In this document: in pieces, positions 41,201 through 63,200 of the stretch
Layout: each line of letters opens with the position of its first letter
Position numbering within the stretch: position 1 is the first letter of the stretch
NCBI GenBank assembly: GCA_964023275.1
Contig: OZ029921.1
Location: 16,900,204 to 16,964,203, forward strand
DNA from: Norana najaformis
Lineage: Eukaryota; Annelida; Clitellata; Crassiclitellata; Hormogastridae
Length of the DNA stretch: 64,000 nt
Direction of reading: 5' to 3'
The notes under the pieces: model-generated
What the model was told of the DNA's origin: nothing
What the model saw: only the letters and a program-made list of their open reading frames with translations
Database searches by the model: none
Translations under genes and position numbers: made by a program

Positions 41201-44200
41201 TGCTGTGTCATGCTACTATTGTGGTTGATTCTGTTCCTTTATACTATGAGTAACTAACGTCTGCCAATTCTTGTTGTGTAAGGGCCGAGCCAAACTTGTT
41301 AAGCACTATCAACAAGAGTATGAATTGCGGAGGCAGCAGATGGAGGAAGAGCGACTGAAGCGAGAGAAAAATCAGATGAAAGAACAAGAAGCAAAACGGC
41401 AATGGTTACTATCAGCCATTTGATTTCTCCTAGTTATTTGGAATAATTGAACTGTTGGAAAAACTTGCTAGGTTCTGCAGTAACTTATGAGGTCTGTAAT
41501 AACTTATTAGTTGTAATGCCGATTTCTGTAGTAAATTATTTGCTTCTGTATTAACTTATTTGGCTGTTAGTAATATTTAGTAAGTTATCAGGCTGCTGCA
41601 AATTTTAAGTTTTATGAGAGATGAATTGCTCAAGTTTCTTGCACAAAGCGTTGCACATGAAAGCCATGTGTCATGTTCGATCATTCTTGCCACCCGAGCT
41701 TATGAAGACAGTTGCCTGTAGTAGAGTCAGAGAAAAACTCGACTACTGTAATTCACTGCTGTACTGCACTACAAAGTCTAACTTCGCCAAACTGCAACAC
41801 GTCCAGAACTTGTTAGCCCGTCTGGTGACAGGATCTCGCAGGTTTGATGACATCATTCCTGTATCGGCAAAGCTATGTTGGCTGCCTGTCAGCTCCAGAA
41901 TCACTTACAAGATGGCTCTCATTACACATAAGACTCTCCCGACCAATCAACTAGCTTATTTGTTATCTTCCCTATAGCACTACCAGCCATCCAGATCTCT
42001 GCAATCAGCTACACAAAATCTTCTGTCTCTCCATGACATCAGAGACTATCAGTCTGAATTTTCACAAGGTGGATTCAGGAGTTCTGCACCAGCCATTTGA
42101 AATAGACTTTCTGTTTACATAATTCATGACAATATTTCGCTAGAACATTCATACAGCAGCTTAAGACCTATTTGTATCGTCTTGCTTTTCTTGTCTGACC
42201 GCTGTGACCCACCCATGCCTATGATTCCTTGCTCAGTTGATGGACATATAGTGTATTAAATGAATTACTTACTTTCTTACTTAAAGAATTTTAAAGGGTC
42301 TGTGACAGGGTTTATTGTATGTTACAGGCAAGAACAGCGTTTAGGAGAACTGGATCGACAGAGAGTGGAAGAGAAACAGATGGATTTGCATAGACAGGAG
42401 GAACAGATGAAGCAGATGGAGGATTACCTTCGCAGGCAACGAGTAAGTCAACTGCACTCTATAGCAATCTGTTGTCCTTGTCAACCTGTGTGAGTTTATG
42501 TTGCGTGAATATGGTTAGAAATCTATGACTATCCATTGTGTCGTTAGTCAGAGAGGTTGTTGTGTGGTATCTGATTGCAGGGAAGGTTTCTCAAATCATT
42601 GGCTAGTTGTAATCATTTCTGGTTTTCAGTATTTTTTCTGAGAATTAAAAGAATAAAAAATCAGTAGTTTATTCTGAGAATAAACATTGGCATCTGTTTT
42701 AACTGCATAACCAACATATCAGAAATAGTAAATTTGATAAGGTCTTGTAACAGAGCAAAGGACCTTTTTCAAGTAAAATTGTTCATTATGCTGTTTAGTT
42801 TTATTATAATGCATGAACTTTGTTTAAATTTTGTACCAAAGTTGTAGTGTATTTTAAGCTTTTGTTTATTTCTTCATTTTGCAAAAACATTAGTATATTT
42901 TTGACTGTGTTCTTAGGCAGCAGGGTTGATTTCGATAATGCCACATAGGAGGCTCTTGCCCTTTCCTTGCCTCTATTTCATCAGCGATTGAAAACCATTC
43001 TGTTTGGTTATGGCTTAAGGTTGTAAGATACGGGGCGCTTCTGCGGAGTTTCTCACGAAGAAGTGCTATGTGAATGTGCAAATAGATGAGACTGAATATT
43101 TATTTATTTAGGTCCTAGTTGCAATAAAAGGTCAATCTATGGAAAGGCATAATTTCTGGCATGAATAAAACTATTGTTACTATTTAATGACAAGGCATCA
43201 AGGTGACTCTAGACTTGACCTGACCATGTTTAGGAGCTGAGAGCGAGACAGCACATGCGGTTGGAGGAATGGTACAGACACAATCATCTGATGGAGGAAG
43301 AGAGGATGAGGGAAGAGATGAGGAGGATATTGAGAAAGAAAAAAACTGTGATGGTACTTAGCGATAGCCATAAACGAGCAGTCAGCAATAGCTGGTGCTT
43401 TTGCCTTTCACCTGATTTGCTGTGCATGCTACGCGTTTAAGTGAAAATCAAATGCTGACCCAGATAATCAGAAATTTTCAATAACACTAATTAGCATAAT
43501 TCGTGTTATCATCTTTTAAAAGTCCATCTTGATGAAACCTGTCTTGTAAGCTGTTCAATCTTGAGAGGTACCGCTATTTGTTGATTTTTATGCTGTTGTT
43601 GTAGTCAATGCATTATGTAATTTCTTGGTCAGTGTTTGTCTAGTTTGTTAATATTCTAGTAATTATTGTCATCACAGTATTTATTTTATTTAACCAACAA
43701 TTCTTCTGTTGTGATCTGTGATTGAAGTATTTTCATGTGTCTGTGGGTTTTGAAAAGATTATTATCTCATTTTATATTTTTCTTGTGCTTCTGCACATTT
43801 AGACTGATTGGTAAGTTTTAGTTTACATTTTGCTAAATGCTATATGTTGTAATGTCTGTTATATCAGTTGTCTGCTGTTGTGATGTTGTCCGTTTGTGTT
43901 TGTTTAGCAGATGTGTCAGTGCACTGTTAAATGTTGTGAAAGTACTTCAGAAAGATAGGTTGACACTAATGCACCCTGCCTAAATGATTGGCACTTAACA
44001 TTTGCATGAATGTCATCATCTACTGCTGTGTGCAGAGAGGGAGAAAATGCCCAAGTGGAGAGCACCTGTTTGGTCTTCATGCTTGCTAACTAATCTTTGA
44101 TAAAATGCCACTGATAATCCAATGATGATTTGAAGCTTTCTTGCATAACATAATTGCTATACAGCATGTGTTTAAAATTACAAGCCCCCAATAAGATCAC

Positions 44201-46987
44201 TGTACCAGTTTTGGTGACACATAGATTAGTGCCATGAAAAAATGTGATACTAAAGGCGCACCGACAAAATCGCCCCGACAAAATAGCCCCGACATAATAG
44301 CCCCGACATAATAGCCCCGACATAATAGCCCCGACATAATAGCCCCGACATAATAGCCCCATAGACAAAACAGCCCCGTCAAAATAGCCCCGTCTACGCC
44401 GTGTGTTGCTCGGCTACGCATCTCAGCAACACATCTAACAGCTTCGTTCTTCGTCTTATCAGGTGCATGGTTATGTTCGGTGACCAGTGTTGCGTTATCA
44501 CTGAACTCCTTCAAACGTCCGCGACAGTTTTTCTCTACACACCTCCACGATTTACTCTCGTCGGCATTAATTCTCGCCTTACGATAACGGAACCCGTCTT
44601 TTAACAGCAACTCCTTTCCTTTCTGTGAGCCTATCTTCTCCATGCTCGGTCGACTTTCAGTTTTTGCAATCACTCAGAATCGTCCCTTTATATATGTGTG
44701 TTTTAGTTGTTTCTTCACTGGTCTACTATACAGGGTGCGAACCGATGAACCGATGAAAAGGACTCATATCACTTTATTCTACCCTTGATGTTGCCCGCGT
44801 GTTTCGCGTATTAGCGCCGCACCACACGAGTAACAGCAGGGCTATTTTGTCGGGGCTATTTTGTCTTGGGCTATTTTGTGCCGGGGCTATTTTGTCGGGG
44901 CTATTTTGTCGGGGCTATTTTGTCGGGGCTATTTTGTCGGGTCACCGATACTAAAACCTTATGCAAGTTAAATAAAGGCAACTAGATATGTTTCTTTATG
45001 ATCATGCATGGGAGAGCTTATGATGAATTAAGCTTAATCAGAATTTCACCAACATTTGCTTTCTCACTTCACATCTGGCATGCAGCAGCATGTTCTGTTT
45101 CAATAAAAGTTTTGCTACAGTTGATACACATGCTGTTAAAATATGAAATTAGACTCAGTAGAATTATTAGTTCAGTAGATGTTAGTTTACATTGTCTTGA
45201 GTATTTGCATCTGAAGAAATGACTGTTGACTTGAAGTATAGGAAGTTGAGCTCACAGAACCTGCAAGAATGCTTTTGAAGCACAGAGTGCACTTTTTATT
45301 CATGTACGATTTTAATTTAATGAGTGACTTGGCAGTGAATCAATGAATATTATATAAATATATATATATATTATATACATTTCTTTTTGTATGTTATTTA
45401 TCTGACTTGGTTTGTTTTATCCCAAATTCTAAACACAGTCTTCTAAAGTGCATTTAATGGAATATTTCTATGCTTAGCTAGTCTGTTGATAAGCCAGATG
45501 TTGTCCTTTCCACTTTACTTTCAAACTGATCTTTCTACACAGGAGTCCTCTACAGTAGAACTACTACTATTTTTCTGAAAGACTTTCATTCTTAATTGTA
45601 CTCTGTGAAATGAGTTGCCTTCTAATGTCAAGCATTTGGCTTGAAGACTTCCTCTTACCAATGAACGATCCTGATCAGATGGAGAGTGGAACTGAAGGAT
45701 TTAGATAAGCCGGCATTGTAGTGTTGTTTTCATGCATTATATTTAGAGTTTAAAGACTCAGTGTTTCCAGTTTTAACATTTAATTCATTTGCATAATGGA
45801 ATATATCCTAGGTAAAACACATGTGAAATTTATATCGAGCCTCTTTAACAGCAAATTTGTTGAAGTTTTCACTTGAATGAGTAGGATTGATGTTGGCTGA
45901 TTTACCCTGTTATTAGCAACTATGACTGACTGACCATGACTGCTGCATTGTGGTAGTCAATAACCGTTGGAACAGTGAACAGGAGTTGAGTTGAATTCTG
46001 CCTTTACAGGGACTTTTCACTCTTACTATTTCAGCTCTGTTATATAATACAAAATGAATTGTGCTAGACAGCCTTCAATTAATGCCTTTGGAATTGAATA
46101 CCAGAGCAGCAGAATTTTGAATAATAAAATATTAGAATGAATTATTGTTAAATATTATGAACAGATATTTTTGCAATAAGCCAACAGTTTTCCTAAATTA
46201 CTTTGCTTTTGTTTTTTAGGAAATAGATCAGTTGCCAAAACAGCAGAGAAGTAATCTTCAACTGCCTCAGCGGCCATCAGAACCAGTGGAAGAGACTTAT
46301 TCCTTTCCAAGCAAGAGTCCTCAGATTCCGCCCCCTCCTCCTCCTCCTCCTGAAAGAAACTCCTCTTTTGAAGTCTACCGAACTGGAAATGCATTCACAC
46401 CACTGAACACGAACATCAATTCCAATGCAGTTGGAGGTCAACAACTGACAGCGTCTCATGGGGCTTCAGCGGCCAAGAAAAGTGTATCCTTCCAGACAGG
46501 TGTTAATGCCCCAAACAATCAGTTCCGTTCATCCCCTGATGATTTCACTTGTCAGCGGCCAATTGGGTCTTTGGGATATCAAGCAAAACCCCAGAATGAT
46601 TATTCGAAGCAAACTGGTCCTGGAAACGTCTCTAACAATTTTTATTACCGAACTGTTGAACCGGCGACTCCTTTCACTCCTGGCACTAATGAAGTTTTCA
46701 TTCTTGAGCGGGGAACACCAGAGTCCAGTTCTCGGCATCAGAACTCTGTCCAAGTGACTCCTGGAGTTGTTGGTAGCCAGGAGCATTACCTTGATCCTCG
46801 TGAGAAGATTGCAGCAGCCAAAATGGCAGACACATTCGCAGCTGGCAGCTACACAACTCCAGAGAGAATGTCATTTCGAGATAAAATGAAACACTTTGCC
46901 AGCGAAGCTGGAGAGGAGACGCCAAAAGACCGATCAAAAATTTCCAGAGCTCAGCAACGACTTGAAACAGACCTGAGCATTCAGTGA
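6539..46987 (+). CDS. AFDN: Afadin (joined coding region, 25 exons, 5' end outside window)
   Basis: Afadin is a junctional scaffold that binds the cytoplasmic tails of nectins through its PDZ domain, Ras/Rap GTPases through two RA domains, and actin and catenins through its C-terminal half. Exons found here follow the family order: RA1 (window residues about 1-102), basic linker (103-187), RA2 (188-285), FHA (about 300-424), DIL (about 441-806), PDZ (about 833-960), proline-rich region (974-1470), charged coiled coil (1480-1629) and C-terminal tail (1630-1884). Summed exon lengths give 5655 nt, exactly 1885 codons with stop, close to the roughly 1800 residues I recall for vertebrate afadin. 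The extreme N-terminus, including the start codon, is not seen and should lie upstream. Identity rests on alignment from memory along the whole protein and is very secure; two 3' donors are ambiguous (see findings). Confidence 0.96.
7629..7741 (+). CDS. AFDN: AFDN exon: end of RA1 domain
   Basis: The acceptor is TTGTAG and the donor GTAAGT, phase 1 in and 0 out. The peptide continues with [20 protein letters not shown] and then [11 protein letters not shown], which closes the RA1 fold and matches the family. The next coding exon is 11 kb away. Confidence 0.93.
9133..9320. repeat. Perfect 94-bp tandem duplication (2 copies)
   Basis: Copy 1 is 9133..9226 and copy 2 is 9227..9320. Both start AACAGTGACAATTATTATTA and end CACATTTACAGCCTG, and no differences were seen. 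Perfect identity implies a recent duplication or an assembly duplication. Confidence 0.9.
9690..9745. repeat. Imperfect GC-rich inverted repeat around two GGCCGGCC sites
   Basis: The 8-bp palindrome GGCCGGCC occurs near 9691 and again near 9738, separated by CAG/CTG-rich sequence able to pair in part (CCAGCCAACTGGCC). It is much more GC-rich than its surroundings. No function is evident. Confidence 0.4.
9828..9854. repeat. GT microsatellite
   Basis: An interrupted run of TG dinucleotides (TGTGTGTGCATGTGTGTGCG) sits in the large intron. Confidence 0.85.
9978..10020. repeat. GAAA/GGAA purine microsatellite
   Basis: The strand is a pure purine tract of GAAA and GGAA units, a polypurine/polypyrimidine stretch in the intron. 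Confidence 0.85.
10490..11200 (-). mobile_element. LINE C-terminal fragment with GAT-rich tail (decayed)
   Basis: Read on the minus strand, frames include [20 protein letters not shown], then [18 protein letters not shown] and [15 protein letters not shown]. These match the region after the reverse-transcriptase domain of jockey/RTE-type LINEs (the segment usually read as LYGSETW, then RILTTEM). The minus 3' end runs into a GAT/GGT microsatellite (10495..10545), just as the related copy at 16985..18170 does. Reading shifts between frames and contains stops. Coding similarity weakens above 11200 but may reach 11440. Confidence 0.6.
10495..10545. repeat. ATC/GAT trinucleotide array (LINE tail)
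   Basis: A run of ATC and ACC triplets forms the 3' tail of the minus-strand LINE fragment. Confidence 0.85.
12130..12265. repeat. Dispersed SINE-like repeat, copy 2
   Basis: It shares GCAGAAATCTTG, a GAATTTGAAC block and TTTGGGTTGACTGTTCAGTG with 1131..1275. Neither copy encodes anything. Boundaries are approximate. Confidence 0.4.
13421..14467. mobile_element. TA-flanked DNA element with CAGTG ends (Tc1/mariner-like, non-coding)
   Basis: The left end reads CAGTGTGAATCATTTAATAT. The right end, reverse-complemented, reads CAGTGGAAAACACCTGATGT. The first 23 bases agree at about 16 positions. Each end is bordered by TA (13419..13420 and 14468..14469), the duplication made by Tc1/mariner/pogo transposases. 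No transposase frame is visible inside, so it would be a non-autonomous copy of about 1.05 kb. The weak terminal similarity keeps confidence moderate. Confidence 0.45.
14925..15030. repeat. Long TA dinucleotide array
   Basis: About 100 bp of nearly pure TA with a few G interruptions at the left. Open frames here merely encode alternating Ile and Tyr and are not genes. Confidence 0.95.
16985..18170 (+). mobile_element. 5'-inverted LINE fragment (decayed reverse transcriptase, GAT tail)
   Basis: The plus strand from about 17130 reads [20 protein letters not shown] followed by ILSPYLFNL (reverse-transcriptase motif B) and [15 protein letters not shown] (motif C, normally FADD). It continues with [19 protein letters not shown] and [15 protein letters not shown], and a GAT/GAC-rich tail. 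Left of about 17125 the element runs the other way: minus-strand sequence gives [18 protein letters not shown], the motif-A region that belongs upstream of motif B. This is the layout of a twin-primed insertion. Stops and frame changes show it is dead. The clade is RTE- or jockey-like and uncertain. Confidence 0.6.
18837..19092 (+). CDS. AFDN: AFDN exon: basic linker between RA1 and RA2
   Basis: The acceptor is GTTCCAG and the donor GTTTGT, phase 0 in and 1 out. The peptide includes the conserved block [19 protein letters not shown] followed by [12 protein letters not shown], seen in all afadins just before RA2. The start MNDFGVEN follows directly on RA1, with no long lysine-rich insert as in vertebrates. 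Confidence 0.92.
19743..19935. repeat. 98-bp imperfect tandem duplication
   Basis: Copy 1 is 19743..19840 and copy 2 is 19841..19935. Both carry AATTAATTAATGTTTACTCA, then GTTTAATAAAGTTTTGATA and CTGTTGCTATATAATCTGC, with a handful of substitutions. Confidence 0.85.
20214..20292. repeat. G-rich minisatellite (CCGGGGGGAAAT-like units)
   Basis: Four or five diverged units, such as ACCCGGGGGGGAAAT, GTCCGGGGGGAAAT and ACCCGGGGGGAT, lie within 80 bp. Runs of five to seven G could form G-quadruplexes. The unit style resembles the minisatellite ends of the Mutator-like elements in this window, but no second inverted end was found. Confidence 0.7.
20850..21912. mobile_element. Tol2-like hAT remnant (non-coding)
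   Basis: Both ends are packed with AAGTA/TACTT motifs, for example TTACTTAAGTAAAAGTTAC near 20940 and TACAAGTAAAAGTATTTCC near 21845. Such short motifs fill the subterminal regions of Tol2-type hAT elements. The exact ends and an 8-bp duplication could not be found, and no transposase frame is present. The interior carries a SINE-like segment at about 21190..21310. Confidence 0.45.
21190..21310 (+). repeat. tRNA-derived SINE-like segment
   Basis: The stretch TGGCACAGTTTGACAGTGTG followed by GGAATTTGATTCC resembles the A and B boxes of a tRNA-derived RNA polymerase III promoter. It lies inside the hAT-like remnant. The body and tail are not delimited. Confidence 0.4.
21930..22055. repeat. GAT/GGT trinucleotide-rich tract
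   Basis: An irregular run of GATGAT, GGTGGT and GATAATGGT units, ending in CATCATCATTG. It may be the tail of a lost LINE, as at 10495 and 18115, but no coding part adjoins it. Confidence 0.7.
22651..22808 (+). CDS. AFDN: AFDN exon: first part of RA2 domain
   Basis: The acceptor is TTCTTTAG and the donor GTGTGT, phase 1 in and 0 out. The peptide starts [20 protein letters not shown] and contains [16 protein letters not shown], the RA2 signature (vertebrate form: KYGLEKENPKDYC). RA2 is the second Ras/Rap-binding fold. Confidence 0.95.
22994..23105 (+). CDS. AFDN: AFDN exon: middle of RA2 domain
   Basis: The acceptor is TTTCAAG and the donor GTGACC, phase 0 in and 1 out. The peptide [15 protein letters not shown] is followed by [19 protein letters not shown], aligning to the vertebrate segment with DDDECPLQIFREWP. 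Confidence 0.93.
23783..23917 (+). CDS. AFDN: AFDN exon: end of RA2 and linker to FHA
   Basis: The acceptor is TTTCAG and the donor GTATGT, phase 1 in and out. It encodes [19 protein letters not shown] and [16 protein letters not shown]. The last block matches the conserved LPPEKLPYLVELSPG that opens the FHA domain. Confidence 0.93.
24683..24786 (+). CDS. AFDN: AFDN exon: first strands of FHA domain
   Basis: The acceptor is AATTTCAG and the donor GTATAA, phase 1 in and 0 out. The peptide has [20 protein letters not shown], including the FHA-type IGRE turn. It is shorter than the vertebrate segment here. Confidence 0.88.
25015..25215 (+). CDS. AFDN: AFDN exon: remainder of FHA domain
   Basis: The acceptor is GATTTTAG and the donor GTAAAT, phase 0 both sides. 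It encodes [20 protein letters not shown], a loop with [18 protein letters not shown], and [11 protein letters not shown], matching the FHA fold (the vertebrate end is FGASHVFKFVDP). Confidence 0.92.
25690..25739 (+). CDS. AFDN: AFDN micro-exon in FHA-DIL linker (50 nt)
   Basis: A TACTTCAG acceptor and a GTAAGT donor flank 50 nt, phase 0 in and 2 out, encoding [16 protein letters not shown]. The sequence is low complexity and unlike vertebrate afadin, but its phases fit both neighbours exactly. Confidence 0.7.
25848..25883. repeat. CATA tetranucleotide microsatellite
   Basis: About nine CATA/CATG units (ACATACATACATGCATACAT) lie just downstream of the micro-exon. Confidence 0.9.
26204..26296. 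repeat. Compound TA/CA/TA/TG hairpin microsatellite
   Basis: A TA run is followed by CA repeats, a central TA run and then TG repeats, bounded by TGCACACA and GTGTGTGCA. CA and TG arms pair, so 26233..26294 is a near-perfect inverted repeat able to extrude as a cruciform. Confidence 0.9.
26448..26503 (+). CDS. AFDN: AFDN exon: lead into DIL domain (56 nt)
   Basis: The acceptor is TTTTTAG and the donor GTAATC, phase 2 in and 1 out. The peptide [19 protein letters not shown] aligns with the vertebrate GPELILPASIEFRESSED that precedes the DIL domain. Confidence 0.9.
26504..29193 (+). other. AFDN intron (2.7 kb)
   Basis: Mostly AT-rich sequence without recognisable genes. A SINE-like unit with an ACCTT-rich tail is at about 28835..28970. 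Nothing else is supported here. Confidence 0.7.
28835..28970 (+). repeat. SINE with ACCTT tail, copy 1
   Basis: A tRNA-like A-box segment (TGGTAGTGCAGTGGATAG) is followed by CTCTGAGGAATGGTG, GGCATGTAATTAG and the tail TTACCTTACCTTACC. The same 3' part occurs on the minus strand at 61505..61735, so this is a dispersed family. Confidence 0.5.
29194..29399 (+). CDS. AFDN: AFDN exon: start of DIL domain
   Basis: The acceptor is GCTTTCAG and the donor GTCAGA, phase 1 in and 0 out. It encodes [20 protein letters not shown] and [15 protein letters not shown], matching the vertebrate STVHFKLSPTYVLYMACRY. The donor is weak, but the join to the next exon is in frame and matches the family. Confidence 0.93.
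29400..31250 (+). other. Two AFDN introns around exon 30189..30420
   Basis: The intron 29400..30188 has short GAGAATGCTTT repeats right after the exon (29445..29520) and TA-rich sequence at 29800..29940. The intron 30421..31250 shows nothing recognisable. Confidence 0.7.
30189..30420 (+). CDS. AFDN: AFDN exon: DIL domain, second part
   Basis: The acceptor is AATGTAG and the donor GTATGA, phase 0 in and 1 out. It contains [20 protein letters not shown] and [17 protein letters not shown], near-identical in pattern to the vertebrate ALAFWMANASELLNFIKQD and QMAFKYLVHCLQSELN. Confidence 0.96.
31251..31510 (+). CDS. AFDN: AFDN exon: DIL domain core
   Basis: The acceptor is TTTCTTTCAG and the donor GTCTGT, phase 1 in and 0 out. 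It encodes [25 protein letters not shown] and [18 protein letters not shown], the most conserved stretch of the protein. DIL domains are shared with class V myosins. Confidence 0.97.
32063..32405 (+). CDS. AFDN: AFDN exon: end of DIL domain
   Basis: The acceptor is CTCTTGCAG and the donor GTGAGT, phase 0 in and 1 out. The peptide includes [20 protein letters not shown] and [17 protein letters not shown], matching vertebrate CFKLNSLQLQALLQNY and LQLPFLLPEDGYSC. Confidence 0.97.
33473..33549 (+). CDS. AFDN: AFDN exon: DIL-PDZ linker
   Basis: The acceptor is TTTCTTTAG and the donor GTAAAA, phase 1 in and 0 out. The peptide [20 protein letters not shown] and HFSS align to the vertebrate GFCRLIPHTRSPGTWTIYF. 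Confidence 0.92.
34035..34181 (+). CDS. AFDN: AFDN exon: start of PDZ domain
   Basis: The acceptor is AACTGTAG and the donor GTAAGA, phase 0 both sides. It encodes [20 protein letters not shown] and VAAV. SLGLSIV is the carboxylate-binding loop that in vertebrates (MGLSIVAA) holds the nectin C-terminus. Confidence 0.95.
35218..35283 (+). CDS. AFDN: AFDN exon: PDZ domain, second part
   Basis: The acceptor is TAACAG and the donor GTACGA, phase 0 both sides. The 22-codon peptide runs from GVNQNIRR to [13 protein letters not shown], the PDZ strand with the conserved GGAA turn. Confidence 0.94.
35804..35877 (+). CDS. AFDN: AFDN exon: PDZ domain, third part
   Basis: The acceptor is TTTGAAG and the donor GTAGGA, phase 0 in and 2 out. 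It encodes [20 protein letters not shown] and MTQEG, matching the vertebrate DGRLAAGDQLLSVDGRSLVG. Confidence 0.95.
36055..36145. repeat. AT-rich tandem repeat, about 26-bp unit
   Basis: Three to four diverged copies of a TTTTAAATTGATTTTGTCCA unit lie in the intron. Confidence 0.7.
36712..36848 (+). CDS. AFDN: AFDN exon: end of PDZ domain
   Basis: The acceptor is GTTGTAG and the donor GTATGT, phase 2 in and 1 out. It encodes [20 protein letters not shown] and [15 protein letters not shown], aligning with the vertebrate AAELMTRTSSVVTLEVAKQG and AIYHGLATLLNQPSP. Confidence 0.95.
36849..38682 (+). other. AFDN intron (1.8 kb)
   Basis: AT-rich. A LINE C-terminal fragment lies at about 38075..38565 (separate entry). 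No vertebrate-like linker exons were found here; flanking phases (1 and 1) agree without them. Confidence 0.7.
38075..38565 (+). mobile_element. LINE C-terminal fragment (decayed)
   Basis: Plus-strand frames give [10 protein letters not shown] near 38170 and [18 protein letters not shown] near 38415, then [15 protein letters not shown]. These match the C-terminal tail of jockey/RTE-type LINE proteins (usual form: GRPRKNW, DLK and W). Frames shift along the fragment, so it is dead and 5'-truncated. Confidence 0.6.
38683..38829 (+). CDS. AFDN: AFDN exon: start of proline-rich region
   Basis: The acceptor is TTTCTTTTAG and the donor GTGGGT, phase 1 in and out. It encodes [20 protein letters not shown], then FSARVDG and [15 protein letters not shown]. 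The sequence is low complexity and not conserved, but phases agree. Confidence 0.85.
38977..40439 (+). CDS. AFDN: AFDN large exon: disordered proline/glutamine region and coiled-coil start
   Basis: The exon is 1463 nt, the longest in the gene, with phase 1 in and 0 out. Most of it is rich in P, Q, S, N, R and Y and is probably disordered, with a polyproline motif [13 protein letters not shown] that could bind SH3 or EVH1 domains. The last 80 residues are charged and helical ([20 protein letters not shown], then [20 protein letters not shown]). They match the vertebrate afadin block SAEESDRLRKLMLEWQFQ followed by its acidic run, which confirms the frame. Confidence 0.95.
40440..41282 (+). other. 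AFDN intron with A-rich repeat
   Basis: Apart from an AATAAA-rich simple repeat at 40970..41060 nothing is recognisable. Confidence 0.7.
41283..41404 (+). CDS. AFDN: AFDN exon: charged coiled coil 1
   Basis: The acceptor is TTGTGTAAG, phase 0 in and 2 out. It encodes [20 protein letters not shown], then [18 protein letters not shown], a charged helix typical of the afadin coiled-coil region. The 3' end is uncertain: a GT donor after 41404 (GTTACT) or a GC donor after 41398 (GCAATG) both keep the frame, differing by two residues. Confidence 0.85.
41621..42290 (+). mobile_element. L2/CR1-like LINE 3' fragment
   Basis: An open frame of 118 codons carries [34 protein letters not shown] and [20 protein letters not shown]. 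This is the region after the reverse-transcriptase palm in L2/CR1-clade LINEs (usual form: [30 protein letters not shown]). It continues past a stop into [16 protein letters not shown] and ends near 42285 in TTACTTACTTTCTTACTTA. The stretch of 357 nt without a stop suggests moderate age. Confidence 0.75.
42328..42442 (+). CDS. AFDN: AFDN exon: charged coiled coil 2
   Basis: The acceptor is GTTACAG and the donor GTAAGT, phase 2 in and 0 out. It encodes [20 protein letters not shown], then [18 protein letters not shown]. It starts only some 40 bp after the LINE fragment's tail. Confidence 0.9.
42930..43095 (+). mobile_element. L2-like LINE 3' end (second copy)
   Basis: A GTTGTAAGATACGGGGCGC block is followed by GAGTTTCTCACGAAGAAGTG and CTATGTGAATG, parallel to 2280..2345. 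Only the 3' end is present. Confidence 0.4.
43234..43353 (+). CDS. AFDN: AFDN exon: charged coiled coil 3
   Basis: The acceptor is GTTTAG, phase 0. It encodes [20 protein letters not shown], then [18 protein letters not shown]. Two donors six bases apart, GTGATG at 43348 and GTACTT at 43354, both leave phase 0. The longer version adds Val-Met. Confidence 0.85.
44197..44673 (-). CDS. FLYWCH-type zinc-finger frame inside the Mutator-like element
   Basis: This 158-codon frame starts at the ATG at 44673. Residues 15-72 fit the FLYWCH finger, a DNA- or protein-binding C2H2 fold: [27 protein letters not shown] and VTEHNHAP, with likely zinc ligands C45, C50, H67 and H69. FLYWCH fingers are known at the N-terminus of some Mutator-like transposases. 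From about residue 95 the frame only translates the left terminal minisatellite and then runs 58 bp past the element, so the natural protein is truncated. Whether it is expressed cannot be told. Confidence 0.7.
   Translation of the reverse strand: MIAKTESRPSMEKIGSQKGKELLLKDGFRYRKARINADESKSWRCVEKNCRGRLKEFSDNATLVTEHNHAPDKTKNEAVRCVAEMRSRATHGVDGAILTGLFCLWGYYVGAIMSGLLCRGYYVGAIMSGLFCRGDFVGAPLVSHFFMALIYVSPKLVQ
44246..44254. repeat. 9-bp target-site duplication, left
   Basis: GATACTAAA directly precedes the element and is repeated exactly at 44947..44955 after it. Nine-base duplications are typical of Mutator-like transposases. Confidence 0.9.
44255..44946 (-). mobile_element. Mutator-like element with minisatellite ends and FLYWCH frame (692 bp)
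   Basis: The left end begins GGCGCACCGACAAAAT and the right end, reverse-complemented, begins GGTGACCCGACAAAAT. Each end continues into an array of a 14-bp unit (GACAAAATAGCCCC on the left, about nine copies, GGGGCTATTTTGTC on the right, about seven), so the inverted repeats are built from minisatellites. The flanks carry a perfect 9-bp duplication. Between the ends lies a minus-strand FLYWCH zinc-finger frame, but there is no room for a transposase, so this is a non-autonomous copy. The intact duplication suggests a fairly recent insertion. Confidence 0.85.
44947..44955. repeat. 9-bp target-site duplication, right
   Basis: GATACTAAA, identical to 44246..44254. Confidence 0.9.
46220..46987 (+). 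CDS. AFDN: AFDN terminal coding exon
   Basis: The acceptor is TTTTTTAG; the frame enters in phase 0 and ends at TGA, 46985..46987. It starts [20 protein letters not shown], has an eight-proline run ([12 protein letters not shown]) able to bind profilin, EVH1 or SH3 partners, and ends with [17 protein letters not shown] and [16 protein letters not shown]. The end corresponds to the vertebrate LTFKERQRLFSQG and ASRKLTELENELNTK, the conserved afadin C-terminus. Confidence 0.95.
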   Translation, partial: EIDQLPKQQRSNLQLPQRPSEPVEETYSFPSKSPQIPPPPPPPPERNSSFEVYRTGNAFTPLNTNINSNAVGGQQLTASHGASAAKKSVSFQTGVNAPNNQFRSSPDDFTCQRPIGSLGYQAKPQNDYSKQTGPGNVSNNFYYRTVEPATPFTPGTNEVFILERGTPESSSRHQNSVQVTPGVVGSQEHYLDPREKIAAAKMADTFAAGSYTTPERMSFRDKMKHFASEAGEETPKDRSKISRAQQRLETDLSIQ

Positions 46988-51056: not shown

Positions 51057-51208
51057 TCAGAGTGTTTGAAAGAGCTGTAGGTCGAGTTTCACAACAACTT
51101 CACCAGATTCCACTTCATGCAGAAGCAACTTCTTTGTGATCGGTCCTTTAGTGGCATTCCTCTCTTTTAAAATATCATGAATACGGACTTCTGTCCGACC
51201 AAGAAAAT
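51057..51208 (-). CDS. ITSN1: ITSN terminal coding exon: C2 domain end
   Basis: The acceptor reads GCTGTAG on the minus strand, entry is phase 1, and the stop TGA is at 51059..51057. The peptide is [17 protein letters not shown], then [20 protein letters not shown] and VKLDLQLF, closely matching the human C-terminal block (FLGRTEI, KGPVTKCLLLHEV, VRLDLQLF). Confidence 0.96.
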
Positions 51209-54200
51209 CTACAGCATTCATTCACAAAGTCTTCATGAACATCATAAATTGATTAAAACAATATTTCACTATAAATTCCTACAAGAAATTCAACACCAAA
51301 ATATGGAACCAAATGCTGTAACCACACAGTGCACAGCCACTTCTAGTGCTCCCTTGTGAAATCGGCTATAAAATTAGTACACTGACCCCAAACATTGGGC
51401 GTAAAGATCAGACGATGACGGAGAGGACTGGACACCCACTCACACACCAACACCAAGAAAATGAATTGGCTATAACACTTCATAATTGTCTGCCCTTTAG
51501 AGTTAATGAACCGTTTTTCTTATTCTTCTTTCCCCAAAGCTAGGCTTCAACTCAAAAACTCTGCAACTAAACGAAATGTTTAGCAATGGCCTGCATAAAG
51601 TACACATGCAAATGTATACATCTTAAAACCTCTTAAAACATCCAGTAACTTTCATAAGCCAATAATTTAAACTTTACTGTGAAAGCTTGCAATACACAAT
51701 AACTAAAATCTACTCCAACAGCATTGCAACCAATATCCAGAAACTTAGGATCTACGTACCATTGGGCGAAAATAGGTCACGATCGTAGACTGTGATACAG
51801 AGGACGTCTTCGTGTAAATCTTTTATTGTGAACTGCATTGATGCGTTCCACTTTGGGTTTAGTGTACTTTGGACGACCTTAGTCTTATGTTCCTGAACCC
51901 CCATGCTCACCTCACAATAGGGATCACTTTTACCTGCAATTACCATTAAATCACAGACTGTAATAAAAGCAGAAAGAGTAGGGTAGTTGCTCATTTATTA
52001 TAAGCTACTATCAACTACAGTTCTCTGAAGCAGTTTGGTGAGCAACTCAACAGAACAACAACCTCTTATCATACATGCTACATGGTTCATTTGCCAAATT
52101 TGTATCATCCTCCACGCCTTGTATTCTGGACTACCAGGTGAAAAGGTCATACTGCACACTATGCTGCCATATCACTGGCAAATGATGTGGCAGAGAACAC
52201 CTCTCTGGATGTTATGATTTTAATTTAATGCTGCATGTTACATAAAATGCTCTTTTCAACAGATAAATAATCCGTTTTGGCCCGTGATTTTTATTTTTCT
52301 AGATAATTTGTGTCTTTCTCCACCACCAAGTTTTAATTATTTTTCTCTTGTTTGTATTAATTTACACCTTGTTTGTGTTGTGGCTGTCAGGACCTATGTT
52401 TTCTGTTTTCATGAACTGCATAGGCATAGGAGGTTATGTTTTCTGATTTTATGAACTGTATGGGCATAGCAGGTTTTCCAAAGTTCCACAAGCTCTTAAT
52501 TTATGGTTTTAGCTCCACACTAACATGGCTAGCACTCTTATCTGTTTGTGTTTATGAGTTGCCCATGAACTGAAGAACTGTTCTTTTCTTATTTAGGTCA
52601 CTTTCTTACTTGCTGTGCTCGTTTTTCTCTGTGGTTTCAATTTCTGTGGCTCTGATTATGGCAGCCTCATTGCGGTGCTTGTCCTTATATTGTATATTGT
52701 TCCTGTTACTATCCCATGCCAAATCTGGTAGTGACAGGTCTGTCGTTAAATTCACACATTCACTGCTGCATTTTGGTCTGTTTCTGAGTTTGGCTCAGGC
52801 CCATTCATTTTACTGGTTCTTGGTGCTTTTTTATCATTTCATATGTGCTGCTGCTTTGTGATGCCAGTAAAAAAATTTCCATTGTGTGCTTCATACAAAT
52901 TCATGTAGAGTATCTTTGACTACACGTCGTGGGGTTGTCTTTGTATCTGCCTCTGTTACTTCATTTTGCTGGTGACACTGAAATAAATCCTGGACCAGTT
53001 ACAATTCAGAGTCTGGATCATGGTCAATTAAATGACTTTTAAGATGTAGAACTACAAAAACTCGGAGCTAGCCACATGAGGTGTCAATGAGCTGAAGAGC
53101 CACCTACCTGTTACCTGGCAAATGGGTGTCAATTTGTTGTCCAAGCCATGCAATGTGTAACAAAATGTAGTCTACCTGTTGTTGCATTTCACTAATAACT
53201 ACAGTGCAATTCACTTAAGACGAAAACGGACAGGACAAAATATCGCTTAGTACGAAATGAAAACTTAGTCCGTGCCGATGTAAACCGACAATAACGTTAA
53301 ATTATTCTCTTGACAAAACTGATAAGACAAAAAGATCGGTTATTACGAAAATGATTTTCGGTCCCGTGCAGTTATTTAAGTGCTAAGTCCGTCGCATAAG
53401 ACGAAATGTTGACTGAAACACAACAGCTGCAGCTTTCAGTAAAGTTTCAGGTTCGCATTTCCATAGGCCTATACGGCTACGGCTACGACAGTTTGACAGC
53501 GTCGGTCTTTGAAGAATGTCACCACTAGAGGAATGAGATAGCATACATGTTTATACTGTAACTGGGTGATTAACAGTAAGAGACACGCAGACCACAGCAT
53601 CAGGCTCACGAAAATGCGTTGGTGCATGAAACTTTTATATCTGTCTACAGTAATGTGGCCATTTCATTCATGGGTATATTTTGTCTGACAATAAAGGACA
53701 TTAAGCTAGTCATGTGGCACATTTATGGTAGTGAGATATGTAACCACAGTGGAAGTGCCCTACTGCTAGACGCATTAGACAGTTTAAGTATCTTTGACTT
53801 CTCTGGCCAGCTTAGTGCCTGCTGTTATCAGACATATACGTAACTTTCTCTTCAAGTAACCTAACATCCTCGTTGACAAGTCTTTGCCATATGGAGACTT
53901 TATCAATGGTCAGAATCTCCTAAGCCCTGTGCAAACTACAAAAGCATCTGCTGCAAATCAGTCAGCACATACAATTACATGTAGTGTAGGCTCGTTCAAA
54001 GGCTTCTCTGTCCGAGACCGATTCAGATTCGCTGTTGAAATAGCGTCGTAATGGTTTACTGACACTCACGTCTAAAAATGGCCGCTAAAGTTCGTAACCT
54101 ACCGTGATCATGTACGTTATGCGTCATTTGCTGCTGCATAGTTAGTCATGCAGCCATAATGCGTTTTACGCTGGCATGCTGCGCTCACGTTTGCCTAACG

Positions 54201-57200
54201 GTTAATAAGAAATTCGGTTAAGACGAAATGTTTACGCTGGTACCCTGTCTTTCGTCTTAAACGAACTGCACTGTATAATGCACCTGATTTTCCCTTAGAA
54301 CTAAGGTTTGCTAACAGCAGACACTAGTGTGGTTAGAACACTCGTAGACACAAAATGTTTGCTGTCAAAGAACAGTCTATTACACCTACTGCCATACAAG
54401 TTGTCCAATTACTAATATTGGCCATACTACTGCAGGTCTACAGTCCACAGTGACTGAGCTCAGTACCAAACAGTGTATGTCTAAGAGCATTCTGGTAACA
54501 TCACAAGTGTCTGCTGTTGCCAGATATTGCTTTAAGAGTGGAAAAGGAAATAGTCATTGATGGCCAGTGACAACACAATATCACTGCAGCTTGACAGAAA
54601 TCTGCAATGCTGCCATGGACCACAGTCAGCAGACCGAAAATGCATCTGAATGCAGTGAAAGGGTCTGTGGAAGCACTAACAAATGGAGTAAAGATGGATT
54701 CCAGGATACAATAATCTCTTAACAAGAATAGTGAGAAAGAATCAAGGTTAAACATCCAAGTTAAGCAATGTTCTAACTTGCTATATAAAGTCAACAATCA
54801 ATATAATATATCATTTAAACTAGTTGCAAGAACAAAATAGTGCTGCTATGTAACATGCAAACTGGTATACTAAACGAATGAATGTATCATGAACAGACCT
54901 TTAATTGCTAAAGCAAACAAAAGAAATATGAAAATAGAAATTTCATAATCACTAGCAGAGCAAAATCATTCTGTAGGTTTTGAATATAAAGAAATGATGC
55001 TTAGGTCTAGATTCTTAAAATTAACTGGTACTGGTACAGTTCGTGCACTTTACACGAAGCCACTAAAAATCCAGTAAAACTCTGACTAATGGTAATCACA
55101 GATTCTGCATTCATAGAATGCATAAAACCAAGCCAGAAGAAAAAATTAAGCAAAATGAATAACATTAATAAATTGTTTTAAGATGTGAGATTCTGCACTT
55201 TTAAAACCACAGTCTGACTACAGTATGACCCCGGTATCCCCCACAAGTCCTGATTATGTAATGAAATGCAACAAAACTGAGTACCAGTATTTATATAGCA
55301 CTCATTCAAATTTACACAGTACAGGCTATTTTTAGAAATGGAGCCCTGCTCCTGTAAATCAGAAGATATGGACAAGAGACACAGATCCTTGCTTAAGAAA
55401 ATGCCTTGGATCATGCCAAGTTAATAAGGATAATAATTCTGCAAAAACGCGCAACTTGAAAGAAACTAGGAAAATCACCAATAGCCATTAAACCAACTAA
55501 ACCCCGGAAACTAGTGCAAAAAGCCAAACATGCATAATGTAATCACGTACAACCAGTAACAAGTCATTAAATGAATAAAAGAATTTTAAATAAGCTAAGC
55601 AGAGGAAAACATAAGCAAGCAGAGAAAAAACACCACCTGAAAAACAAGATAAAGCCATAAACAGAGCAAGATACAAACATGAAACCAGAAGAGAATCCAA
55701 TTACATGCAAAGAATAAAGTTTGTCCTACCATCTTCCCCAGGTGTTAAGTTGCAACCCTCAATAATCACAACTAACAGTCGGCCAACCTTTGTGGCTCTC
55801 TTGCCAGCTACAGGACACACGTATAAGACAAATTAAAAACAAATACTCAAGCCAATTAGCTAAACCAAAATATGACATAAATGCAGTGATAGTGCAGAAC
55901 GTCCTTAACAAATTAACGAATAGGAGTAAAGCAAAAAAAAAATTAAACAAATATTCAAACAACTAAGCCAGGTTTCCAAGCTTTGTCAACTATCATTATG
56001 TGGTAAACAGTAAATTACTTTGCAATAAACAAACATATGATAAATAAATAATAAATTATTATAAGATACACACTGTAGCATCATACTGCGAAAAGTAAAG
56101 GCTTGTTTCTGCCATCTCTCATCAACAGGTTTCTTGCCTCTGCCTGGTACCATCTGTGGTCATGCTCTCAGTTTCTCTCTATGGTATCGAAGGCTGTTGA
56201 AATATCAAGGAGGCAGAGGGTTTTCTTGCCTCTGCCTCCTAGATATTTCAGCAGCCTTTGGTACCACTGATCACAACATCTTACTCCAAACACTTTCAAC
56301 CTGGCTTGGTTTTACTGACACTGCTCTCCTGTGGATACGATCCTATCTCATGATCTTCCTCTCTTAAAACATCAGAAGACTCATTCCAATCATGCCCTCT
56401 CACTTGCAGAGTTCTTGGACCTCTTCTATATGCTGACACTTCCACCGCAAGTGGCAGCAGACAGTGAATAACTGTACATATACAGTGCCTTTTTCACCCT
56501 TGGCAGTACTACTGCATTCTGTAAATGGTCTTGTTTTAAAATATTATTCAGTTAATCCTATACACCATCGTCACCATCCCAAACAGTTCACTCATTAAAC
56601 CATCCTCAGTTGACCATCAGCAGACAATGATCCATTGTAGCATTATCTATCATCAACTGAAGCGTACAGACCACATTTGGGTGCACATACATTCAACAGC
56701 AGCTGAATTAAGAATAGGGATTAATAGTAACTGCCTTTCAGGTTCAAGCAACTTGTGTGCAGACTTCCTCCAGCTGTGGTTGTACTCCAATGCAGGACTA
56801 TGGATGAAGGAAAGGTACAAATGACACTGTGCAAAGCACAAGGCAAACTAATCAAAATGACTCAAACAAATGTGTTAGTACAACACAAATGTAAGTAATT
56901 AAGACATCTGTTAACACGCCATGTGTCCATTGCCTTAGTGAGGAATCATAGGCGTAATGTACCAAACATCTGTTTGAAAGAACCTATTGGAGGTGCTGTA
57001 AAATGCACTGCATAATCTTAGTGTCTGGTCTGGAATGGCACTGCAAGAAAAAAACTGAAATTATAGGGGATTTTAGTACATAAGTGATCACAAGCTTAGC
57101 CATAGCTTCATAAGACAGTTGGAGTGAACACACTAGTGTTATTGCAAAAGCACAGCCACAAGCAGCCATGTAATTAATCACAAAATGAATATGACTGGGC

Positions 57201-60200
57201 ATAAGTCTCAAATGAAGAAAGTGTTAAAACTCACAGAGTCCACAGCCATGTTCAATTACACATATTGGTACAGATTAATAAACTATGCACTGGAATTTTG
57301 TACAGATTAAGTCAACTCCAATCAACTCTATAGAATTCTAAACACTGCCCTGATTGGTTCACCTAATATGAACAACTGAGTCTGAATTAAATGAGGAGTG
57401 CTCAATTGATCACAGTTGATCGGATGAAAAAGGGGTAATTAGCAACATTTTCCACAGATGTAAAGCAAGTGAAGCAAGCCACGGTGAAATACCACAGAAG
57501 CAACTTGGAAATGGTGCCACATCATTAAAAAACAATTCAGCAACATTCTCTGGAGAATAGAGCAGAAACTTGAAAATCATGGAACCATTTCCAAGACAGA
57601 CTAAGACTGGAACAAAGAAGGATGATGTAACTGATGCTGGTGCAGCATAGAAGTCATCTTACCATTCACATCGCAGGCAGTAAGGTTAATGCCCTCTACT
57701 ACTATGACAAGAAGTCGTCCAACACCTCTGTTCGACATCAGGTGTGCTAGATTGGGTCATATTTATCAATTAGACAGTGCAACAGAGTTATTATACTTAA
57801 ATTCCTTTCAGGAATTAAACAAAAACAGTAAAAATCAACTGTGTAAGAAGCTAGAATGTCATTATAAAATCTTCAAGCAATTATAACTGATTATTTAATA
57901 TTATTAAGTTCTGAGAATGTGACTATCAATAAATTTTGAGGGTGCTAAGAAAAGCTCATAAAACATCAAACAGGAATTTCAGTGTGTTATTACTAGCATA
58001 TTTTAAAGTGACTTTATAGGTTAGATGTTTATGATGTTAGTGAAAGTATAGTGAATGAACATTTGGTGAAGTTCTGTGCGAGAATTCTAAATTACAGTGT
58101 GGACCCCATAACATGAAGTCTTTGAGGGACATGCCATCGAATCATGTGTAAACCAGGCCGTTTTATTTAGCATAATTAAAACAGGATAATGCTCAAATAA
58201 CCTATAATATTATCAAATACCCTAAAAGATTCTCTAACTAAACACCTAGTACAGCAGGCCTATACACCATCACTTTGGTTCATTTAGAATAATTAAAAAA
58301 ATGTTACACATAATTTGCGAATTAAAAAAACAAAAAAACACAATATGCTAAAACTTGATAACCCTATTAAACATAAGTTAACAATAATTTTAAATTTAAC
58401 TATAAAATATTTAACAAAGTGGAATGTTTTGAAATTATTAACACAGACAATACATCATCTTGTACATGATTCAACAGTGTCCAGAGAGTTTATATTCCAA
58501 AAATCACACCTTAATCTGTTAGGTTCATCTAGTACAGATGAAGGTTTTACAGAGTATGATGTTAATTTATTCTGTTTCTGGCTTTTTGCTCTATTTTTCT
58601 TTTTAAAATCAGCCATTCCACACAGGTTTTAAATTTCTTACATTTCATAAGCCTAATATCGGCAGTCATTGTACTAGCATTTGGCAGATGGCAGCACCAG
58701 TTAGCTTCCTCTTAGCTATGTCTTTCTTCACTTGAGGATCCACAACATGGCACACATTTCCTTGCCAATCTAACTTCCAAAACTACATTGCTCACAAATT
58801 CAACAGCTTTATTTCAAGTTTTACCCAACCTTGTAGATTTCACTCTGCAATACCAAGATCACTGGAAATCATGATTGCTTTTCACCACTATGTGACTGAT
58901 CTATAGCAGCTAGTTTTCCCTCAACAATGAATTAATGTGGATGCTTGTGCCATTATGAAACAGGCATGTTAAAAATATCTAAATATATGTAGCATGACAA
59001 GTGCAATACACCTTACGAAAATGGGATGAAAAGCAAAAGGAAATATGCCTAGCAGAGCATGTTCGTGCGATTCAGTGAAACCTATTTCCTATATTTAGAT
59101 ATTTAGTGCCACACAGCAGTTCTTTATACTGGCGGACAACTGCTCGCGAACGGTTGTTCGCAAGGTCAGTTGCTTGCTAGGTTAGTTGCTCGCTATGACA
59201 ACTGTTCGCTAAGTCAATTTCTCGCCAGCTATATGTTTCATGTCAATGTACCTATGTTTGTGTAGCGCTATAATATTACATGAAAGTGATGCCAAATTTG
59301 CACTAACCATGAGACTTCTGCCCTCTCTTGCTTTTTCTTCCAACAACTGATTTTGTCAAAGCAATTATTCAACTTTCAGCAAATAGCAATTTTCCACCAG
59401 AAGCGTAGCCGGTGTTAGATTATTTTGAGGACACATGGATTGGTCGTCCGATTCGCCATAACCACCAATAACCAACTCGATTTCAACACCAGTTATGGAA
59501 TTATGAGCCGGTCTTAAATGGACTGCCAAAAGCAAATAATTCTTGTGAAGGATGGCATCAAAATTTTTTTGGAACTGATTGCTAGTTTGCATCCATCCAA
59601 ATGGAAATTTTTGAAGGCTTTGAAGACGGAGCAAAGTAGAAATGACGTAGATCTTGAACAGCACTTTGCCAGCCAGTGTCAACAAACGCGTAAATATACC
59701 ATGACAAAGCGGAACGCATCAACAGCATCGTGGAGAAATACGAATAATAGATAGACCTGTTGGATTATCTACAGGGCTTAGTGCATAATTTTTACATGTA
59801 AGATTAAAAGAGTTATGCGTAAAACATTTACGGCTGTTTGTCATGCGTGTTTCACTTCTTGCTAGTGTTACTATAATTATGCCAATTTCACTATTATTTG
59901 CTTATTCGAGCTACAGACCTGGCAAGCAATTGTCATACCAAGCAATTGACCTAGTGAGCAACTGTTCATGAGCATCTGGTAAAGCAACTGTTCCTGAGCA
60001 ATTGGCTGTAAACCTTGAGTAATTAACCATTTTAACACATACGTACCATCAAGGCTGAGAAAACAGCTGCTTACTGTAAAAGCTAGTTTAATATACATGA
60101 AAAAAATTGAAAAACATCACGCAAACAGTTCAATCACATAATTTGTCAAAGCAGATCTGTTTACAAGCAAACAAAACACACTGGACCATAAACTGGAGGC

Positions 60201-63200
60201 ATGTTTTGATATAACGCCTTTTCAACGCCTAACAGTTCAGACATCCAATGAAAAGTGACTCACCAGAATGAGCCTTCTCCTTCTTCTTTCTTTCCGTTTC
60301 CAGATACTGTTTCGAGGTAGATTCTATCTTTCTCACCCAGTTATCTCTGTCACATCAAAACAGATTTTTACAATTTTGCACATCACATAGAGTTTTTGGT
60401 ACCTTTCATCGACTTATCGATCTATCTAACAGTGGCAAGACATTTGGCAAGTCTCTACAGAAGGATTTGCTGTTTGAATCCATGTCTTTTGTGCGAAATC
60501 AACAATTCCCAGGTAAGCCATGCAAACTGTAAGGAAAGTTCAACTGACCTTCTCTTGGATGAACTGCTGTTACTATGTAAATGTAATCAGAAAACGTCTA
60601 CTGTGCTGGTGTCCAATGCACAACACATCAACCGATGGCACTGTGTATGCACTTCAGCTGAAAACTCTTCTAACCCCAGGACCATACCTTTCAGGACTGT
60701 GCATGACAAATATGAGTGATAAACTAATGACTACCTATCTAACTATCCAAATTCAAACTTGCAAATAAATTAATTACATTATTATAATGTAAGTAATTGC
60801 ATAAAAAACCAGGTTATTCACAAATTCTGTAAGCTATAATAATGCAAATAATTCTATATGACTGGGCACCATCATCTACACAAATGGTGACAACTTTACC
60901 AAACTTCAGTCTGCATAATTACCTCTGATTTTCATAATAACAATCACACTACTACTAGCACCCACCAATCCACATTCAAGAAAAAATTTCACATGCACAC
61001 AACTCTGACATGACCACTTGTAATACATTTCTAAAAACAGCATGCAATAATTATATTTTCATACAGCATTTATTTCATATGAAATTATTTCCATCCAATG
61101 CACATAATTTTGCTCAAGGATTCACCATGTTCTGTGAACACGAATTGCTCCTTGCCTTTCATTTGTAGTTGTAGCTCGGAAACTGTAGGTTGTACGTTCA
61201 ACGTGAGATATGTGAAATATTGTGCTATCAGCATCGCTATCTTGTGGTTTCTGGATCATAACCTCGTTGAGAAATATTGGCTACAAAATGGTGAGATGTC
61301 AATGTTGTTAAATATTTAAATGTAGTGAAATGACAAAACCAGGAAGTTTCTATCACACATTTTTATTCGTACACAGAATGTCGCTTAACTCGATATTACT
61401 GTAACAAATATAATTTATATTTGAGAATGTCTGTAATATATTGAGCAACAAGAAAATGAACTGCCATCTATCTCTCAGCTGACTTTCAACAAACACGATC
61501 CCCTCAACTTAAGGTAAGGTAAGGTAATTGGTCATGTATCAATCACCAGCACTCCTCAAAGTAGGATCTATGGGTGTCGGCTGAAGCCAAGCTCAACAAC
61601 ACTTATCCAACACTCAAAAATCCACAATAAACCATGTATTTCATATGGGTACTTTCAAATTATGAAATGGGAATCAAATCCCAGATGAAATGGTGAAATG
61701 GCAAATGGCAATCATGCCCTTTCTAATGCCAGTCTTTATCCATCAACTCTTTAATTGGAGGAATGTGATGTGTTGATGACTACTAGGTACATATGTGCAA
61801 GTAGATGTGAGCAGAAATAAAAGCATATGAAATGTTGGCTCACATTTCTGTACATCTTGAGGTGGACATTAGCCTTCATGTCCATTGTAAAAATAGATGT
61901 TATGTTTCCAATTGGTCGCTGAGGTTGAGCAAGGAGCAGGAAATCATTAAACAGTATGCCAACCAGTTCTTTTCCACTCTTCACCTGATGAAAAATGCAA
62001 CACATTGAAACAAAATGAAACAAAAGTCTGACCTTTCACAAACTCAGACCCCACATCACCAGATTTAAAAACTGCTCGTACCTGAGAAAATCACGACATC
62101 CACCCAATATAAAGTATATGCTTGTTAGTTGAAGCAGCTTGGGTCAGTACAACTTTTGTTATCATAACATATGATGGCAAGTCATTCATGTAGTATTAGG
62201 TGTTTCACTTGTTTAAACTGAGAAGAAAAGGAAGAATTATGCAACAAACTTACCTTGTACAAAGTGCCACAGTGTATGTATTTACGTGGCCCGAGACAAT
62301 TTGTCAATGAGTTGAAAGTAATTTTCTGAAAATGCAACAATCAAAGGTATCATCTCTGCTGGTTTACACTAGAATTTTAATATATAAAACTTTAATAAAT
62401 GCTCCTAAATGACTTTGTTGCATTACATGTAGTTATTACATTATGCTACGACATCCAGCACCCAAGAGGCTGGATGCTCTTGCCACTCATGGGCACAAGT
62501 GGTGGAGTCCGACTTGAACCCACTAAATATCTTACTATACAAAGCCTGCTGACATGTACAGAGGAGTAAAGGAAGATTTATGCAACAAACTTGCCTTGTA
62601 CAGGCAATGGAGATGGCAATGTTCCACAGAGGGGCACAATACAGATGGTGATTATGATGTGTGCTCTTGTCTTCCCCACATACCTCTGCCAGTCCATCGC
62701 AGTGCACGTGAGTCTGCATCCATTCCAGTCGGTCAGAGTTTTCTTTTTCCCTGACCCCTTCGTTGACCTGGCTGCACAGTTCTGTGGCTTTGTTCAAAGC
62801 CTCTTGAAGATTATGATGATCCGGGTGGCCAGCAGGCGTGTGCTTAAATATCTGGAATTCAATCAAATATGAATAATGCCTTGCAATAAAAAACATCACT
62901 TACAACATTCCAGTATTATTTAACATTAGCATATCCACGCTCCACTGGCAGGAATCAGTTTATTCTTTCACCTGTATACAAATTAAGACTGTGGCCAATA
63001 AATTTGAGTGATAATTGGATACCTGGTAGTATTCTATCTTGCTATCTGTATGACTTGTGTTCAGTTAGAATGTACCTTGTGATTCTGTGGTCATTTAACG
63101 CTCAAATGATAATCAGAGATCTACATGTTTAAGTAATACTTAATAAGATCAGCAGTAAGTGAATTTGACAATAGCACCTTTTCAATCAACAGAGGGTATT

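Follow-up and report, generated by a model that had tools for sequence, protein, structure and literature searches.

The long-form intersectin gene of the annelid Norana najaformis carries two versions of one exon of its C2 domain. The 3' end of this gene lies on the minus strand of a 64,000-nucleotide (nt) stretch of contig OZ029921.1 (assembly GCA_964023275.1, positions 16,900,204 to 16,964,203), referred to here as the window, in which positions are counted from the first letter. Two exons, A (57663..57746, minus strand) and B (55730..55807, minus strand), are best explained by an ancient tandem duplication of a single intersectin exon, the two copies serving as alternatives (in the simplest case as mutually exclusive ones) that give two versions of the C2 domain. 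We put the probability of this explanation at about 0.8.

Two homologous exons for one part of the C2 domain

On the minus strand, the exon order runs from seven exons for the DH and PH domains (E1 to E7) through A, B, and C to the last exon, D, which carries the stop codon. A and B both lie between E7 (60264..60346, minus strand), which encodes the end of the PH domain and the linker, and C (51760..51933, minus strand), which encodes the remainder of calcium loop 1 (GKSDPY) through calcium loop 3 (YDRDLFSPN). Exon D (51057..51208, minus strand) supplies the end of the C2 domain (DFLGRTEV...LDLQLFQTL). The first-pass annotation of this DNA had described A and B as exons of 84 and 78 nt, each entered and left in phase 1, and its coordinates, strand, lengths, and phases were all borne out. 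With 28 and 26 codons, respectively, the two are adjacent, homologous, equal in phase, and divisible by three in length. E7 joins to either of them in phase 1, and each gives a complete frame, as had been claimed: E7+A+C+D and E7+B+C+D both remain open until the stop codon at 51057. The three introns around the pair (2517, 1855, and 3796 nt) are the longest among ten measured, the other seven being 268 to 809 nt long.

The gene had also been named as an intersectin, and the duplicated element as the first strand and calcium loop 1 of its C2 domain; the matches found in the PDB and Pfam agree with both. At full length, the best PDB match of the form containing A (form A) and of the form containing B (form B) was ITSN2 (3jzy), with 527.6 and 510.7 bits, respectively, over DH-PH-C2. 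Across the exon itself, A aligned to ITSN2 without a gap and B with two one-residue gaps. The Pfam C2 score was 95.9 bits for form A and 91.7 bits for form B and dropped to 82.1 bits when both exons were omitted. What the exon encodes is therefore the first strand together with the greater part of calcium loop 1.

The resemblance between A and B is not due to chance. We scanned the window for pseudo-exons, that is, open segments of 60 to 105 nt between an AG and a GT, divisible by three and with the same entry phase, and obtained 688 (minus strand) and 839 (plus strand). A scored 61 against B. Once truncated versions of the two exons had been set aside, the top score of any other segment against A was 27 on the minus strand and 28 on the plus strand, and against B it was 23 and 29, respectively. 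In tblastn, each exon recovered the other, at E values near 1e-4 when the 64-kb window was searched and of 2e-4 when the search was widened to 144 kb. Against human ITSN2, A scored 58, B scored 38, and the best decoy scored 33. By itself, the match of B to ITSN2 is at chance level (tblastn E = 0.20, level with a decoy), so the case for B rests on its match to A. For the other nine exons, no convincing duplicate was present in the 144 kb, where their best stray match (E = 0.055) contains a stop. A third copy of the A/B exon was found neither in the window, by the pseudo-exon scan and tblastn, nor in the 144 kb. The sequences flanking A and B share no common alignment longer than 11 bp, and since these flanks no longer align, the duplication is old.

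The differences between the two exons bear the mark of coding constraint. A codon test was limited to the 17 codons of the gap-free alignment. There, 11 of the 17 residues were identical, and the first, second, and third codon positions had 8, 2, and 13 changes, respectively. A copy that had lost its function at the duplication would have collected changes evenly over the three positions, which is not what is seen. Nonsynonymous divergence (dN) was 0.39 by NG86 and 0.35 by maximum likelihood; synonymous divergence (dS) was undefined by saturation in the former and 18 in the latter. When an equal number of changes was placed without constraint in two sets of 100,000 simulations, the observed similarity score was reached by none of the 200,000 and the observed identity by one. 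These results indicate that the duplication is old and that selection on the protein continued to act on both A and B long afterward, and it is mainly because of the codon pattern and the saturated divergence that we think both are used. The first-pass annotation had argued for the use of each exon from the intactness of both frames, an argument that is weak alone, as 44 to 57% of randomly mutated 17-codon blocks were also free of stops.

Predicted differences at the calcium site

We compared the calcium ligands by alignment to the C2 domains of SYT1 and PKC-alpha and to a ferlin C2 domain. At the five classical C2 calcium positions in loops 1 and 3, form A has aspartate throughout. Form B has aspartate at four of the five and glutamate at the first, and its loop 1 is shorter by one residue. 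ITSN2 differs in lacking both loop-1 aspartates: lysine and asparagine occupy the first two positions, and aspartate is found at three of the five. On these residues, the calcium site is predicted to function in form A and to be altered in form B. The linker is more basic in B (GKRATK) than in A (HLMSNR), a difference that could matter for membranes. A tentative extension of this prediction, which we think somewhat doubtful, is that exon choice acts as a calcium-affinity switch, with A giving a true calcium-sensing C2 domain, B a weaker or altered one, and the choice in each tissue being made through RBFOX-type regulators.

Splicing of the pair and competing explanations

Splice sites were ranked against 3948 AGs and 3325 GTs with approximate matrices. 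The description of both exons as having good splice sites was upheld for the A donor (top 1.1%), the B acceptor (top 9.2%), and the B donor (top 3.0%, thus weaker than the A donor) but not for the A acceptor, which is weak (top 62.2%). Weak sites are also present on ordinary exons of the gene, such as the D acceptor (top 45.5%) and the E2 donor (top 12.5%). By eye, the sites around A and B look U2-type. For exon C, the acceptor proposed at 51933 gives a collinear C2 domain and is favored by homology, but the AG before 51957 has a better pyrimidine tract and ranks higher (top 0.6%, versus top 15.7% for 51933). Its use would extend exon C by a candidate in-frame segment of 24 nt (51934..51957, minus strand), adding VCDLMVIA to loop 1. 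The Pfam C2 score of form A is 87.2 bits with this insert, versus 95.9 bits without it. The extension could vary loop 1 further.

The earlier label of a mutually exclusive exon pair stands insofar as an intact pair of alternative exons is present, but the exclusivity of A and B in transcripts is something we infer: a product of A and B together is also in frame, and the intervening intron is 1855 nt long. Crowding cannot enforce exclusion because the exons lie this far apart. Since neither crowding nor a mismatch of U2 and U12 sites nor a break in the frame clearly applies, splicing regulators are left as the probable selecting device. Candidate regulatory sites are two UGCAUG motifs of the RBFOX type (55709-55704 and 55534-55529, minus strand), which start at nt 21 and nt 196 of the intron that follows B. 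Two such motifs occur together in only 1.4% of the 300-nt segments of the minus strand, a hint that those after B may regulate the choice of exon.

Pairing between introns is not counted here as support for enforced exclusion. The best duplexes between the three introns, in 80-nt windows, had energies of −45.8, −49.5, and −55.3 kcal/mol, compared with −44.4 to −48.8, −43.8 to −47.1, and −46.2 to −54.7 kcal/mol for the best duplexes of four random sequences per intron pair that kept dinucleotide frequencies. Two of the three pairs thus beat all four randomizations, by 2.4 and 0.6 kcal/mol, a reading confounded by a GC-rich inverted repeat in the A-B intron. This repeat (56113-56364, both strands) is also the strongest local fold (56312-56113, −74.6 kcal/mol). 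It lies beside frames that look reverse transcriptase-like by eye, the plus-strand one having no Pfam match, and is probably a transposon remnant.

In the mechanism that we propose, one intersectin exon would have been tandemly duplicated long ago to give A and B, and transcripts would hold one or the other, yielding two C2 versions identical after loop 1. The choice would be made by splicing factors and not by crowding or frame, with which the weak A acceptor and the UGCAUG motifs after B are compatible. With lower confidence, the swap may tune both calcium and membrane binding.

Several observations weigh against this explanation. The A acceptor scores poorly, the double-inclusion product is free of stops as well as in frame, and the length of the A-B intron takes away crowding as a means of exclusion. 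UGCAUG is not peculiar to the intron after B: E6, a constitutive exon, is also followed by two within 300 nt and C by one. Two of the four dN/dS methods, LWL85 and YN00, yielded no value, and 11 of the 28 codons of A and 9 of the 26 of B are poorly alignable and fall outside the codon test. A genome search with the form A C2 domain did not list exon B. Finally, the calcium ligands are assigned by alignment with SYT1 and PKC-alpha sequences.

The low score of the A acceptor, together with a tract upstream of B that is richer in pyrimidines, would also fit a history in which only one copy is spliced and the other, most likely A, has recently begun to decay. We consider this unlikely. A retains its frame, its donor, and, by eye, a branch-like CTAAT about 24 nt upstream, and it is nearer than B to human ITSN2 (58 versus 38). 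The codon pattern speaks for constraint through most of the history of the pair, although a very recent loss would still be compatible with it.

Alternatively, A and B might be independent cassettes, joined in one mRNA with a spare N-terminal C2 strand or both skipped. Both of these products are in frame, and Pfam still recognizes a C2 domain in each, at 91.8 bits with both exons (via the B copy) and 82.1 bits with neither; furthermore, no device that clearly enforces exclusion came to light. Judged by the C2 fold, however, double inclusion would repeat a strand and skipping would lose the first one, and of 236 human events of tandem exon duplication, about half are internal with mutually exclusive splicing (PMC9741552). 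Independent cassettes therefore strike us as improbable. An assembly artefact joining two haplotypes or paralogues is scarcely credible, as the sequences around A do not resemble those around B and the form A search returned no second intersectin C2 gene, and the same holds for chance similarity, which the pseudo-exon scan rules out.

The surrounding gene and comparable systems

The window holds the 3' end of a gene with the architecture EH-EH-SH3x5-DH-PH-C2. In 80 kb of upstream sequence, EH1, EH2, and SH3A to SH3E were matched in order and on the same strand as the window exons, with human query sequences. The domain order was found on one strand, in a comparison that covered the EH, SH3, PH, and C2 domains and part of the DH domain. 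Besides E7, the exons for part of the DH domain and the PH domain, all on the minus strand, are E1 (63652-63545), E2 (63276-63178), E3 (62851-62684), E4 (62325-62254), E5 (61984-61844), and E6 (61280-61156). The E6 donor at 61156/61155 reads AAAG|GCAAGG on the minus strand and would make the following intron a GC-AG intron, as judged from the frame required for joining to E7.

When the 608-Mb genome (17 contigs) was searched with the form A C2 domain, the intersectin gene was recovered in three pieces (C, D, and A), and the next-best matches were other C2 domains with 33 to 38% identity. As this search gave no second intersectin, the gene is probably the only long-form intersectin in the genome. 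Vertebrates usually have two intersectin genes (PMC3753573). Scans with the same domain of two contig collections not meant for animals gave 37 pattern matches in one and 2 in the other, a set of viral contigs, and none of these was confirmed.

A second gene, on the plus strand, converges on intersectin (31085-32431, 38955-40616, and 46220-46984). It contains two DIL domain pieces (66 and 34 bits in Pfam), and other stretches, which have no Pfam match, may resemble the C terminus of afadin. A FLYWCH zinc finger frame at 44200-44673 on the minus strand (33 bits in Pfam) is perhaps derived from a transposon.

Tandem duplicated exons that substitute for one another form a well-known class, for which one study counted 236 human and 154 fly events (PMC9741552), and the A/B pair would be a further case of it. 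The main text of that study contains no occurrence of ITSN, intersectin, or C2 domain, and the part of the open-access literature covered yielded no description of the pair; automated genome annotation may already list both exons as isoforms. Vertebrate ITSN1-L and ITSN2-L share the gene family and domain order. In the portions of text covered, their variants affect the EH, SH3, and DH regions and exon 35 or involve truncations and the choice between S and L forms, with no mention of a duplicated C2 exon (PMC3645719, PMC3753573).

A close functional parallel is OGDH, in which exons 4a and 4b also arose by ancient exon duplication and exon choice sets calcium sensitivity: one exon gives a calcium-insensitive form, and the other has an aspartate-rich motif reported to be essential for calcium binding (PMC7969005). 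OGDH is an enzyme and not a C2 protein, however, and its exons exclude each other through distant branch points in an intron of 118 to 131 nt (birds and mammals), compared with 1855 nt between A and B. In the C2A domain of Piccolo, a presynaptic scaffold, splicing likewise alters structure and calcium affinity (Garcia et al. 2004, cited in PMC12288660 and PMC1950890), but there it affects a nine-residue stretch and does not swap homologous exons. As for the selecting device, Caenorhabditis elegans unc-32 has UGCAUG in the intron after the second of its exclusive exons, 7a and 7b, where it is bound by RBFOX proteins and is needed for neurons to select the first (PMC3585155). In that gene the regulation was shown experimentally, whereas intersectin offers the motif alone.

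The C2 domain of intersectin may sense calcium: work published in 2024 on the calyx of Held states that it "may bind Ca2+" and that it "may act as a Ca2+ sensor" (PMC12559987). A glioma paper on ITSN1 reports binding of the C2 domain to tubulin and annexin A2, the accessible portion being silent on calcium and hence neutral to our calcium prediction. The saturated divergence of A and B points to an old pair that a large group of animals may share. In human ITSN2, both loop-1 aspartates are missing; an intersectin with all five aspartates, and with a natural alternative exon that alters this very loop, would provide a matched pair of proteins for testing calcium sensing by the C2 domain.

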